Assembly (NCBI GenBank): GCA_009777355.1
Contig: WRMA01000003.1
Location: 1 to 54,492, forward strand
Origin: Oscillospiraceae bacterium
GTDB lineage: Bacteria > Bacillota > Clostridia > Oscillospirales > WRJC01
DNA length: 54,492 nt
Direction of reading: 5' to 3'
Made by a program: the position numbers and the translations under genes. Of the stretch, positions 6,093 through 51,359 are shown in pieces; the stretch's first letter is position 1, and the number at the start of each line of letters is the position of its first letter. The notes under the pieces are model-generated. The model made no database searches. It had not been told where the DNA came from and was given only the letters and a program-made list of their open reading frames with translations.

Positions 6093-6258
6093 TAGACCTC
6101 TTTCAAAACCGAAATACGACCACCCCGCCGTCTGCGGACGGCACCCCTCCACGGAGGGGAATAGGGAATAAACGTCTGAAAGTGAGTGAAAATTCCCCTC
6201 CGCGGAGGGGTGGCGCGACGCGTAAGCGGCGTGACGGGGTGGTTTTGAAAGAAGTCCA
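6093..6258. mobile_element. Palindromic MITE-like element: TAGACCTCTTTCAAAACC ... GGTTTTGAAAGAAGTCCA ends, CACCCC-hairpin cores
   Basis: Terminal inverted repeats; internal hairpins CCGTCTGCGGACGG, CCCCTCCACGGAGGGG and CCCCTCCGCGGAGGGG. Confidence 0.75.
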
Positions 6259-17934: not shown

Positions 17935-17997
17935 AAATATTTTCGCACCTCTCTTTAATTATTATATAAATTACAAGACCAAATTAATATTTGTATT

Positions 17998-18073
17998 GTA
18001 GGGAACGCATTTATGCGTTCCGTGAAAACAAAAAATTATATGTATTTGCGGAACGCATAAATGCGTTCCCTAC
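17998..18073. repeat. BIME-like inverted GTAGGG-hairpin pair, copy E
   Basis: GTAGGGAACGCATTTATGCGTTCC ... GGAACGCATAAATGCGTTCCCTAC. Confidence 0.85.
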
Positions 18074-18107
18074 AATCATATCCATCTATAATTAATCACT
18101 CTCGGAT

Positions 18108-25084: not shown

Positions 25085-25107
25085 TAGTTAATAAAAATTA
25101 AAAAATT

Positions 25108-25195
25108 GTAGGGAACGGATTTATCCGTTCCGCAACGCAGATAAATATAATTTATAATTTCTTGTTTTCACGGAACGCATAAATGCGTTCCCTAC
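25108..25195. repeat. BIME-like inverted GTAGGG-hairpin pair, copy F (inverted relative to E), between fusA and tuf
   Basis: GTAGGGAACGGATTTATCCGTTCC ... GGAACGCATAAATGCGTTCCCTAC. Confidence 0.87.
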
Positions 25196-25293
25196 AGGCA
25201 AAAATCCAACCCGTTGTTCGCATTAATAATTAAAATAATTAAAATAATATTTAAAGCTTAAATTTAAATAGTTTAAAGGAGGAAAACTTTAAC

Positions 25294-26499
25294 ATGGCAA
25301 AAGCTAAATTTGAAAGAACCAAGCCCCACGTAAATATAGGAACCGTAGGTCACGTCGACCACGGTAAGACCACGCTTACGGCGGCAATCACCAAGACACT
25401 GGCTATGGCTGACGGCATAAACGAATTTATGAGATACGACCAAATCGACAACGCTCCCGAGGAAAAAGCGAGAGGTATTACAATCAACACGAGACACGTA
25501 GAGTATCAGACCGAGAACAGACACTACGCGCACGTCGACTGTCCCGGGCACGCGGACTATATCAAGAACATGATTACCGGCGCGGCCCAGATGGACGGGG
25601 CGATACTCGTCGTCGGAGGAGACGACGGGCCGATGCAGCAGACGAGGGAGCATATACTTCTCGCCCGTCAGGTGGGAGTTCCCTCGATAGTCGTGTTTAT
25701 CAACAAGGCCGACTTAGTCGACGACGAAGAGCTTCTTGACCTGGTCGAAATGGAAATAAGGGATTTATTGAATCAATACGATTTCCCCGGCGACGACACG
25801 CCTATAGTGAGAGGTTCCGCGAGAAACGCTCTCGAAAGCGCGTCGACCGACACGAGCTCTCCCGAGTATAAGTGCGTGCTTGATTTGATGGCCGCGGTGG
25901 ACGCTTTTGTCCCGACTCCCGACAGAGCCGCGGACCTGCCGTTCCTGATGCCTGTCGAGGACGTGTTCTCGATTACGGGAAGAGGAACGGTCGCGACGGG
26001 AAGAGTCGAGAGGGGAACTCTCAAACTCAACGAAGAAATCGAAATCGTCGGGCTTATGGACCAGCCGAGAAAGACAGTCGCTACGGGAATCGAAATGTTC
26101 AGGAAACTTCTCGATTCGACGACCGCGGGAGACAACACGGGTATCCTGCTCAGAGGCGTGAACAAAACCGATATAGAAAGAGGTCAGGTTCTCGCTAAAC
26201 CGGGTACTATCAAGCCTCACAAAAATTTCAAAGGTCAGGTCTATGTTTTAACCGAAAAAGAAGGCGGACGTAAGAAACCGTTCTTTAATAACTACAGACC
26301 GCAGTTCTATTTCAGGACGACCGACGTTACGGGTATAATCACTCTGCCGGAAGACGTCGAAATGTGCAACCCGGGCGACAACGTCGTTATGAGCGTAAGC
26401 TTGATTACGCCGATAGCAATCGAAAAAGGACTGAGATTCGCTATAAGAGAAGGCGGAAGAACGGTAGGTTCGGGCGTCGTCGTTGAAATCGACGAGTAA
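25294..26499 (+). CDS. tuf: Elongation factor Tu
   Basis: [60 protein letters not shown]. Confidence 0.98.
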
Positions 26500-26500
26500 T

Positions 26501-26534
26501 CTTACTTTTCTTTTTATGAAAAAAGAAAAGTAAG
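26501..26534 (+). repeat. Palindrome CTTACTTTTCTTTTT..AAAAAGAAAAGTAAG (copy R1)
   Basis: Directly after the tuf stop; also at 32412..32443 and 51262..51295. Confidence 0.8.
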
Positions 26535-26606
26535 CAAAAGAAAAAAGTAAAATTAAAGATTACCCGGTTGAAATAAATCGGGTAATTTTTGCTTGGGTGA
26601 ATTTTT

Positions 26607-32358: not shown

Positions 32359-32411
32359 TTACTTTTATCCTCCAAAAATCTTAAACTATTATTTTTATCG
32401 TTTTTCTTTTG

Positions 32412-32443
32412 TTACTTTTCTTTTTTCGTAAAAAGAAAAGTAA
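32412..32443 (-). repeat. Palindrome TTACTTTTC..GAAAAGTAA (copy R2)
   Basis: Abuts the stop codon of the ferredoxin-subunit gene. Confidence 0.75.
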
Positions 32444-32650
32444 TTATTTATTAACCGTAATAACTATGTGCGGGCAGACGACCGCGCACATCGCGCAGGA
32501 TATGCAGGAGTCCGGGTCGGTTACTCCTACCGGGTGATAGCCTTTTTTGTTTATTTTGTTTTTGTCAGTCTCAAGAATTTTCTTCGGGCAGACTGTTATA
32601 CAGATTTCGCACGCTTTGCATTTTTCTTCGTCTATAACAATTTTTTTCAT
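32444..32650 (-). CDS. 4Fe-4S ferredoxin-type delta subunit of 2-oxoacid oxidoreductase
   Basis: CKACEICITVCP and CISCAMCAVVCP. Confidence 0.92.
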   Translation of the reverse strand: MKKIVIDEEKCKACEICITVCPKKILETDKNKINKKGYHPVGVTDPDSCISCAMCAVVCPHIVITVNK

Positions 32651-41614: not shown

Positions 41615-41845
41615 GGTTTTTGAACGAGTAAACAAATTATGAACAAATGTGAAAATTATCGCAGAAAGCCCTCTTTTTTAAAGAGGGTGGCAGTCGCGTA
41701 AGCGGCTGACGGGTGTTTTTTAAAATTTGATTTTGCGTACGGGGAGACGAAAACACCCGCCGTCTGCGGACGGCACCCTCTTTAAAAAAGAGGGCAAAGA
41801 ATAAATCCATTATTTGTTCACAAAAATTTAACTCATTCAAAAACC
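41615..41845. mobile_element. 231-bp palindromic MITE-like element, copy 1
   Basis: GGTTTTTGAAYGAGT ends; internal CCCTCTTT..AAAGAGGG hairpins; ~97% identical (by eye) to the reverse complement of 44051..44280. Confidence 0.9.
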
Positions 41846-44050: not shown

Positions 44051-44280
44051 GGTTTTTGAACGAGTTAAATTTTTGTGAACAAATAATGGATTTATTCTTT
44101 GCCCTCTTTCGTAAAGAGGGTGCCGTCCGCAGACGGCGGGTGTTTTCGTCTCCCCGTACGCAACATCAAATTTCAAAAACACCCGTCAGCCGCTTACGCG
44201 ACTGCCACCCTCTTTAAAAAAGAGGGCTTTCCGCGATGATTTTCACATTTGTTCATAATTTGTTTACTCGTTCAAAAACC
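44051..44280. mobile_element. 230-bp palindromic MITE-like element, copy 2 (inverted relative to copy 1)
   Basis: Same TIRs and core as 41615..41845. Confidence 0.9.
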
Positions 44281-44545: not shown

Positions 44546-45427
44546 ATGTTCATAGAAAAAAAAGCGTACGCTAAAATAAATCTCTATTTAAAAATATTGG
44601 ATAAACTGGAAAACGGGTATCATAATATTTATACTGTCATGCAGAAAATTTCGCTGCGCGATAATATTAGAATTAATATAAATCAGGGATATAGAAATAA
44701 TATAAAAATAATCTGCGGGAATGAAAATATACCGGTCGGCGAAACAAATACGGCGTATAAAGCCGCGGATTTGTTTTTGAACTATACTAATATAAATAAT
44801 TTTGATATAGAAATAGAAATAGAAAAAAATATCCCGAGTATGGCGGGTCTGGGAGGCGGAAGTTCAGATTCCGCCTGCGTTCTTCTGGGATTGAACGAAT
44901 ATTTTGATTATGTTTTACCTGAGGATATTTTAATGGGAATCGCGTCAAAAATTGGCGCGGACGTTCCCTTTTTCGTTCATAGCAACGGGGAAACAAACTG
45001 CGCGGTATGCGAGGGAATCGGCGAAATTGTTACGCCGTATTATATAGATTTGTCAGAATTTTATTGTTTCGTCGTTAAGCCGGTTTATAATATTTCGACG
45101 AAACGAGCGTTTGAGGACTGGGACAGCTCTAATAAGCGGGCAAAGAATCAACAAAAGCCCCCTTCCCAGAAGGGGGTGTCGCGAAGCGGCGGGGGTTGGC
45201 TTCACAACGATTTCTCCGGTTTAATATTCTCACAGAACAAAAACATAAAAGAAATAAAAGATTCGTTAATAAAATCAGGAGCGGCGGCGGCTGAAATGAC
45301 CGGGAGCGGCTCGGCGCTGTTCTGCATATTTGAAGATTTAACAGACGCTGAAAAATGCCGCGCCCAAATAAATTTAAGAGACGATACGGAATTTTGCGGC
45401 ATATTTAATTTTTTGGGTAAAAAATAA
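44546..45427 (+). CDS. ispE: 4-diphosphocytidyl-2-C-methyl-D-erythritol kinase carrying an in-frame palindromic repeat
   Basis: KAYAKINLYLKIL, IPSMAGLGGGSSDSACVLLGLN, ADVPFF, MTGSGSALFCIF. Confidence 0.92.
   Translation: MFIEKKAYAKINLYLKILDKLENGYHNIYTVMQKISLRDNIRININQGYRNNIKIICGNENIPVGETNTAYKAADLFLNYTNINNFDIEIEIEKNIPSMAGLGGGSSDSACVLLGLNEYFDYVLPEDILMGIASKIGADVPFFVHSNGETNCAVCEGIGEIVTPYYIDLSEFYCFVVKPVYNISTKRAFEDWDSSNKRAKNQQKPPSQKGVSRSGGGWLHNDFSGLIFSQNKNIKEIKDSLIKSGAAAAEMTGSGSALFCIFEDLTDAEKCRAQINLRDDTEFCGIFNFLGKK
45154..45197 (+). repeat. Palindromic half-element embedded in frame in ispE
   Basis: AAAGCCCCCTTCCCAGAAGGGGGTGTCGCGAAGCGGCGGGGGTT; homologous to half-cores at 6.1, 41.7 and 44.1 kb. 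Confidence 0.75.
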
Positions 45428-50163: not shown

Positions 50164-51294
50164 TTGATAGTACAGTTAGAACTGCAGGAAGCGAAAAAAG
50201 AACTCGGGGATATAATATCACAGATAAAACAACTCGGGGAAAATATAAGAATACGGGACGTTGAGAGGGAACATAAAGAATATTCGGAGAAAATAAATTC
50301 GGACGGGTTTTGGGATAATATAACGGACGCGAACTCGATTTTGAAAAAATCGAAGATTTTATCCGGGAAAATAAAAGATTTCAGAAACGTCGAAACTGCG
50401 GCGGATTCAGCCTTTGAACTTGCTTCTATGGCGATTTCTGAAAACGACGAGAGCTTAACTCAGGATATTTTACGCGAAACGTCGCGAATCAAAAAAGATT
50501 TTTCGGCTCTTGAACTCGGGATTCTTCTGGACGGAGAGTATGATTTAAATAACGCGATTATATCTATTCACCCCGGAGCGGGAGGAACGGAAGCGCAGGA
50601 CTGGGCGGAAATGCTCTACAGAATGTATATGCGCTACGCCGAAAAGCATAGCTTTAAAATAAAGACTCTCGATTATCTCGAAGGAGACGGCGCGGGAATA
50701 AAATCCGTTACTTTTTCTGTCTCGGGTTCAAACGCTTTCGGGTATCTCAAAAGCGAAAACGGAGTGCACAGGCTCGTAAGAATATCGCCGTTCAACGCGG
50801 CGGGCAAACGCATGACGTCTTTCGCGTCGGTTGAAGTGATACCCGAAATCGACGACGAGGCGTACACTAAAATAGAAATCAAACCCGAAGATTTGAGAAT
50901 CGAGTCGCACAGGGCGAGCGGCGCGGGAGGTCAGCACGTAAACAAAACAGATTCGGCTGTGCGAGTAATACACATACCGACGGGAATAACGGTCGGCTGC
51001 CAGAGCGAGAGAAGTCAGAACCAAAACAGGGAAACGGCAATCAAAATGCTTAAGAGCAGACTTCTCGAAATAAAAGAGCGGGAGCATCTGGAGAGAATCG
51101 ACGATATTAAAGGCGAGAAGTCGAATATAGAATGGGGTCATCAAATACGTTCGTATGTCTTTATGCCGTACACTCTGGTCACGGACAAACGCACGGGATA
51201 CGAAAACGGTAACGTTTCGGCCGTGATGGACGGCGATTTGGACGGGTTTATCAAAGCTTATCTTACTTTTCTTTTTGCGGAAAAAGAAAAGTAA
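50164..51294 (+). CDS. prfB: Peptide chain release factor 2, single uninterrupted frame
   Basis: RISPFNAAGKR (SPF), HRASGAGGQHVNKTDSAVR (GGQ); TTG start with GGAGAAG SD (ORF track starts 50149). Confidence 0.95.
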   Translation: MIVQLELQEAKKELGDIISQIKQLGENIRIRDVEREHKEYSEKINSDGFWDNITDANSILKKSKILSGKIKDFRNVETAADSAFELASMAISENDESLTQDILRETSRIKKDFSALELGILLDGEYDLNNAIISIHPGAGGTEAQDWAEMLYRMYMRYAEKHSFKIKTLDYLEGDGAGIKSVTFSVSGSNAFGYLKSENGVHRLVRISPFNAAGKRMTSFASVEVIPEIDDEAYTKIEIKPEDLRIESHRASGAGGQHVNKTDSAVRVIHIPTGITVGCQSERSQNQNRETAIKMLKSRLLEIKEREHLERIDDIKGEKSNIEWGHQIRSYVFMPYTLVTDKRTGYENGNVSAVMDGDLDGFIKAYLTFLFAEKEK

Positions 51295-51295
51295 G
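51262..51295 (+). repeat. Palindrome CTTACTTTTCTTTTT..AAAAAGAAAAGTAAG (copy R3), overlapping prfB 3' end
   Basis: Encodes prfB C-terminal LTFLFAEKEK and its stop. Confidence 0.85.
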
Positions 51296-51359
51296 CAAAA
51301 GAAAAACGGTAAAAATAAAATAATATATATTTTTTTAAAATTTTAAGGAGGAAGAATCA

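Follow-up and report, generated by a model that had tools for sequence, protein, structure and literature searches.

The DNA analysed here, referred to as the window, is a stretch of 54,492 nucleotides from the draft genome of an Oscillospiraceae bacterium (assembly GCA_009777355.1, contig WRMA01000003.1), and it carries at 44546–45427 on the forward strand ispE, the gene for 4-diphosphocytidyl-2-C-methyl-D-erythritol kinase. The assignment is based on TIGR00154, a single match in the genome and alignment with congeners; the open reading frame specifies 293 residues, scores 198.3 bits against NCBIfam TIGR00154 (cut-off, 138.7 bits) and retains the kinase motifs AKINLYL, GLGGGSSD, GADVPFF and MTGSGSALF intact. 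Within the gene, at 45154–45198 (+), lies a type A unit of a repeat family, recovered in a search of the window with model R1 at 63.2 bits (E 4e-16) and translated in frame as ...NQQ-KPPSQKGVSRSGGGW-LHNDF..., such that an element read through in a conserved gene, as described in the initial annotation, is indeed present. All parts of the unit lie on the forward strand. Its pyrimidine arm, Y (CCCCCTTC, 45158–45165, by direct reading), pairs over a CCA loop with a purine arm, R (GAAGGGGG, 45169–45176); TG and a second hairpin (GTCGC-GAA-GCGGC), together TGTCGCGAAGCGGC (45177–45190), form a freely varying second loop, after which comes a third strand, R′ (GGGGGTTG, 45191–45198), which mirrors R under the triplex code discussed below.

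Other units lie between genes in the same window. Type C units are found at 41664–41719 (+; Y CCCTCTTT, R AAAGAGGG, R′ GGGTGTTT; 46.7 bits) and at 44097–44146 (+; 55.0 bits), with inverted partners at 41750–41799 (−; 55.5 bits) and 44176–44231 (−; 46.7 bits), respectively, and the half-cores that had been noted at 41.7 and 44.1 kb are thus strong model matches (46.7–55.5 bits). A further copy noted at 6.1 kb, a type D unit at 6120–6159 (−; Y CCCCTCC, R GGAGGGG, R′ GGGGTGG), matches the model only weakly (16.4 bits, E 0.012), yet on direct reading has the same anatomy, as does its inverted partner at 6195–6242 (+). The two type C pairs are each contained in one of two inverted, MITE-like 230-bp copies (41615–41845 and 44051–44280) that flank the rpsB region and have the terminal inverted repeats GGTTTTTGAACGAGT. 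The window also holds repeats of other kinds, namely GTAG-tagged palindromes (GTAGGGAACGCATTTATGCGTTCC and variants) at 17995–18076, 25105–25196, 36420 and 51700, two of these loci being inverted pairs, and an A/T-rich hairpin repeat, TTACTTTTCTTTTT...AAAAAGAAAAGTAA, which is present three times (26499–26552, 32409–32462 and 51260–51313).

The membership of the ispE element in a dispersed family, which had been proposed from these few copies, holds across the genome. When as many as two mismatches are allowed, its outer hairpin, CCCCCTTCNNNGAAGGGGG, is found 35 times in the source genome and the reversed pattern never, and a covariance model built from 19 units has at least 158 matches there and at least 152 and 113 in two congeners; the outer arms covary among family members, as had been claimed for the hairpin arm. 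Of 149 genomes sampled from the order, 13 match at E 1e-6, the three species of the genus all being among them, and among 300 genomes sampled from the phylum the source genome alone matches at E 1e-8. The family is therefore centred on a single genus, with a patchy occurrence elsewhere. Rfam gave no match in the window, and a literature search by sequence string returned unrelated papers only.

The source genome is a draft in 143 contigs, 90.9% complete, and a type C unit is present in the first ~170 bases of contigs C4, C6, C17, C21, C63, C80, C102, C104, C111, C113, C117, C123, C125 and C136; the number of contigs that start at such a unit suggests that the assembly was broken by these repeats. 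The many contig ends at type C copies, together with the fragmented draft, are what might be said for ascribing the element to chance, to an assembly artefact or to decay of an ispE pseudogene. Such explanations are, however, very improbable given the absence of control matches, the independent occurrence of the repeat pattern in a congener assembled in 20 contigs, and the state of ispE itself: the initial annotation had considered a non-functional gene with an intact second copy elsewhere, but reading frame and motifs are whole, and the 90.9%-complete draft yielded no further ispE.

Comparison of the units reveals a constant order of parts, i.e. (A/T)G, arm Y, a loop of ~3 nt, arm R, usually TG, a second hairpin and a G-rich R′, with a length mostly of 40–60 nt; units start (A/T)GCCCCC and finish with GGGGGTTG or its equivalent. 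The second hairpin is nearly unconstrained in sequence: 91 units have 56 distinct sequences of 10–54 nt (nearly always >10), 55 of which fold, with a mean minimum free energy of −7.7 kcal/mol versus −3.2 kcal/mol when shuffled, and pairing is maintained while the sequence changes completely. Identical second-hairpin sequences are found with different Y/R types, as if these hairpins were exchangeable cassettes. In two units of a second species (G001; L161:892–952 and L172:954–1012) it is the first loop that is enlarged, by an extra GC-rich hairpin (e.g. CCCCCTTC-AGCGCGCAGCGCGGTGT-GAAGGGGG), as if loops could take up new hairpins.

The feature that ties the units together is the relationship between R and R′. 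The third strand is a mirror of the purine arm, with G opposite G and either T or A opposite A; an antiparallel purine-motif intrastrand triplex, with R′ lying on the Y–R hairpin, would follow this same code. The covariation is three-way, and it is seen in the pairs GAAGGGGG-GGGGGTTG, AAAGAGGG-GGGTGTTT, AAGGGGGG-GGGGGGAT and GGAGGGG-GGGGTGG (the 6.1-kb copy), in AGGGGAGG-GGAGGGGT and GAGGGAGG-GGAGGGAG, in AAAGGGGG with either GGGGGATT or GGGGGTTT, and in GAGGAGGG, which is accompanied by any of three third strands (GGGAGGAG, GGGAGGTG or GGGTGGAG). When the sequence 3′ of any Y–R hairpin was scanned for the mirror in four sets, the match was perfect in 86/218, 44/90, 39/75 and 43/100 cases, compared with 1, 4, 8 and 5 for a direct-orientation control in the same sets. 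Because such a scan seeks its own match, the test was repeated with R′ taken simply as the strand that follows the second hairpin: of 158 candidates, 105 were mirror-perfect and none direct-perfect, whereas permuting R′ among units gave a mean of 33 and a maximum of 46, proportions that describe the family rather than the genome since the sequences are stretches around model matches. The other 53 candidates lack a full mirror match, some of them being hairpins that were read from the opposite strand or in a shifted register, and 17 R–R′ pairs that had been selected on the match were left out of the evidence. Since related copies are not independent events, the fairer measure is the number of distinct R types, ~ten of which covary with R′ across several families.

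A Watson–Crick alternative, with R′ taking the place of R on Y, was rejected, there being no direct-perfect case when R′ was defined by position, and the occurrence of either T or A in the third strand at A positions of R, which the triplex code permits, is not explained by Watson–Crick pairing. Conservation of G-quadruplexes formed from the G runs is likewise hardly probable as the basis of the family; although one strand of each unit has two runs of at least three G, and some archaeal triplex-like motifs convert to quadruplexes (PMC8044849), a single unit has two G runs rather than four, and the matched A/T positions in R and R′ would be left unaccounted for.

The description of the element as a palindrome akin to the Rickettsia palindromic elements (RPEs) is also insufficient, because a mirrored third strand shapes the family; as a full account, a plain palindrome or RPE was rejected on this ground, and the unit is better described as a hairpin-looped triplex motif of ~40–60 nt. 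A rival reading is that the family consists of two-hairpin palindromic repeats of the REP/RPE type, in which R′ merely supplies one side of a stem shared with an inverted partner unit, its mirror relationship to R being without structural meaning of its own. Many units do occur as inverted pairs with R′ complementary to the corresponding strand of the partner, the source genome has both GTAG-type REPs and an IS200-like gene, and in-frame REPs are known in other bacteria (PMC3733652). Pairing with a partner, however, needs no mirror of R by R′ within a unit and leaves unexplained the restriction of T/A exchange to positions opposite A; moreover, the mirror holds over ~ten R types and in single in-gene units, and the unit is without a GTAG or CGTC end tag. 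We therefore consider the REP/RPE explanation unlikely. A transposase gene flanked by units was not found: the source genome has one weak Y1_Tnp gene, the sole IS200-like gene, with no units within its 3.4-kb locus. That gene (L079:1432–1908, on contig C57) has in frame in its own ORF two GTAG-REP-like palindromes of opposite orientation, GTGTAGGGGCGCGCATTGCGCGTCCGC near 1559 and its inverse near 1712, located on either side of the HUH motif MPNHIHMI.

The occurrence of units inside genes is not peculiar to ispE. In the stretches examined around model matches in two species (the source genome and G001), 38 units are in frame within 24 ORFs that have homology support. A few of the units lie near an ORF end and may fall outside the true gene. 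In the source genome the genes are, in addition to ispE, tsaD (two units), mfd (a pair), dnaX (a pair), cysS, pfkB, a tmcAL-like gene, a U32 peptidase gene, an ECF-transporter fusion (a pair) and phage gp15 (two units); in G001 they are asnB, htpG, prmC, rqcH-like, miaB/rimO-like, ogt, apbE, pfkB, dnaX and genes for a U32 peptidase, an Elp3-like protein, a methyltransferase, a glucoamylase and a sodium:alanine symporter. All 24 ORFs are open through their units; some are truncated where a contig or locus stops, and a few, because of truncation or otherwise, do not reach curated cut-offs. Of the units, 15 are sense and 23 antisense to the gene, and all three frames are used, the frame encoding PPSxKG being that of 22 of the 38.

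Empty sites are seen in tsaD, both units of which are missing from the congeners G001 and G002 (79% and 75% identity along the gene). In alignments with solved structures, the insertions in tsaD and in cysS (the latter compared with 1li5) coincide with gaps, and that in mfd is located between two blocks that match. With pfkB, dnaX and the U32 gene the units are at the same loops in both species and differ in make-up, implying that the insertions are old and have changed since, or that these loops are tolerant hot spots. A second in-frame peptide, VGRGDPGAP or close variants thereof, is encoded in pfkB (L007) and in tsaD (L111), dnaX (L170) and prmC (L166) of G001; its DNA in G001 tsaD, GTAGGGCGCGACGACCCCGGCGCGCC, is a GTAG-type palindrome, and a second repeat family is therefore probably coding too in the genus.

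The ispE copy itself is less simple. The element is in frame, as claimed, but its description as an insertion is not supported: the stretch from D(W/F)D to NDF has 27 residues here compared with 29 and 26 in two congeners, and both congener enzymes share a native-looking segment at the site. Alignment with relatives thus did not reveal the empty site that had been anticipated in ispE, clear insertions being found only elsewhere, e.g. in tsaD. Because the stretch lengths are near equal, the element is a swap for a native segment of similar length with no net insertion, and the unchanged length fits poorly with simple insertion. The region of IspE around the element varies generally in length and sequence, and in an AlphaFold prediction made from two sequences (mean pLDDT 42, a model too poor to serve as evidence) the element lies in the least confident, coil-like stretch. 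IspE of G001 (L034) has a different in-frame palindrome, ACAGGGGCGGGATTTTCCCGCCCTGAT, read as TGAGFSRPD, in the loop before GLGGGSSD.

Given its location in a conserved gene, the unit might alternatively act in the mRNA or the protein, i.e. as a hairpin that pauses ribosomes or as a loop with a tuning effect on IspE. A high GC content and a predicted single-strand fold (−11 kcal/mol as DNA) would be in keeping with this, but the ispE copy folds only modestly better than shuffled sequences (z −1.84), and congeners are without units at the same place; use of both orientations and all three frames in many unrelated proteins argues further against such roles, which we consider improbable. Since units are present in both gene orientations and between genes, the fold more likely matters in DNA than in mRNA.

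Taken together, the results are probably best explained by a dispersed triplex-motif family that is selfish DNA, the ispE copy being a passenger that has replaced a variable segment of the enzyme. What we infer most firmly is that the fold has been kept and not the sequence. In the proposed mechanism, Y would fold onto R, and the hairpin of free sequence would bring R′ back to lie antiparallel on R, with G on G:C and T or A on A:T; the resulting class II (purine-motif) intrastrand DNA triplex, which may form in the cell, would be the conserved anatomy of a repeat common to the species of the genus. The unit would have spread as selfish DNA while single-stranded during replication or repair, either singly or as inverted pairs; movement through single-stranded DNA would explain the single units, the inverted pairs and the absence of obvious target duplications. 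Copies within genes would survive only where the frame is kept and a soluble stretch such as PPSxKG is placed in a tolerant loop, and the ispE peptide would thus be a neutral passenger that renders no service to the enzyme. A broader proposition, which we advance tentatively and with more doubt than conviction, is of a mobile family that is conserved as a three-stranded fold and not as a sequence, takes interchangeable hairpin cassettes as its second loop and, in spreading through genomes, decorates the proteomes of the genus with short in-frame peptides, essential proteins included.

Repeats with the capacity for intrastrand triplex formation have so far been known mainly as intergenic oddities of unproven function. 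Covariation of third strand and stem over ~ten sequence types provides evolutionary evidence for selection on a three-stranded fold, or on whatever reads it, and the in-frame units in tsaD, mfd, dnaX, ispE and other genes indicate that triplex-motif DNA can enter proteins at scale. The family may also be useful as a set of matched natural variants with which to test triplexes in cells and the movement of short palindromic DNA.

With respect to known systems, in-frame palindromes are not new in themselves (PMC3733652, PMC10969869). The recurrence of the elements in many genes is upheld, but coding palindromes outside Rickettsia were already known in the form of GTAG/CGTC REPs, some of which are in frame in uvrA, tRNA synthetase and repair genes, with RAYT transposases for the GTAG type (PMC3733652). 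Like these REPs, the units described here are short dispersed palindromes that occur as singletons and inverted dimers, some in frame; they differ in having two hairpins and a third strand and no GTAG/CGTC end tag, and a flanking RAYT (Y1) gene was not found on checking the 3.4-kb locus of the one weak Y1_Tnp gene. RPEs, too, are short repeats that occur in intergenic DNA as well as in frame in numerous conserved genes unrelated to one another, but are ~150 bp long (PMC10969869), with families 4 and 6 being CGTC-tagged (PMC3733652), whereas the present units are ~40–60 nt, untagged and follow the triplex code. On this description they stand apart from RPEs, which are an analogy for the coding copies and not the family itself. 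There is some resemblance to MITEs in that the type C pairs at 41.6–41.85 and 44.05–44.28 kb sit in segments of 230 bp that are bounded by terminal inverted repeats; type A units inside genes, whether solitary or paired, are without such ends.

The closest known kind is that of the intrastrand triplex repeats, i.e. the PIT elements of Hoyne and Maher and the TM/TMECO motifs. With these the family shares the arrangement Y-loop-R-loop-R′ on one strand, an antiparallel purine-motif third strand (G.GC, A.AT, T.AT), G/C-richness, many copies per genome, frequent inverted pairing and a patchy distribution among close relatives, and a Y–R hairpin with a mirror R′ under the G.GC, A.AT and T.AT code is found in 105 of 158 candidates, including the window unit (GAAGGGGG/GGGGGTTG). 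For a motif of this kind, the triplex proved stable in vitro but was unseen in vivo by DMS footprinting, and the motif is linked with genomic instability (PMC4666352). The second loop is a point of difference: the ITxF search of Holder et al. (2015) admitted second loops of 1–6 nt, the earlier search by Hoyne et al., as cited there, had a limit of 10 nt, and that of TMECO is 3 nt (PMC4666352), whereas here it is a hairpin of free sequence of 10–54 nt. TMECO, moreover, is always intergenic in E. coli MG1655 (PMC4666352), in contrast with the 38 units inside 24 genes described here, whose sequence also does not conform to the TMECO consensus. An earlier account of coding or hairpin-looped triplex repeats could exist outside the open-access literature. 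In adhering to the triplex code while departing from the known repeats in loop length and in their intergenic location, the family appears to be a looped, coding variant of the intrastrand triplex repeats.
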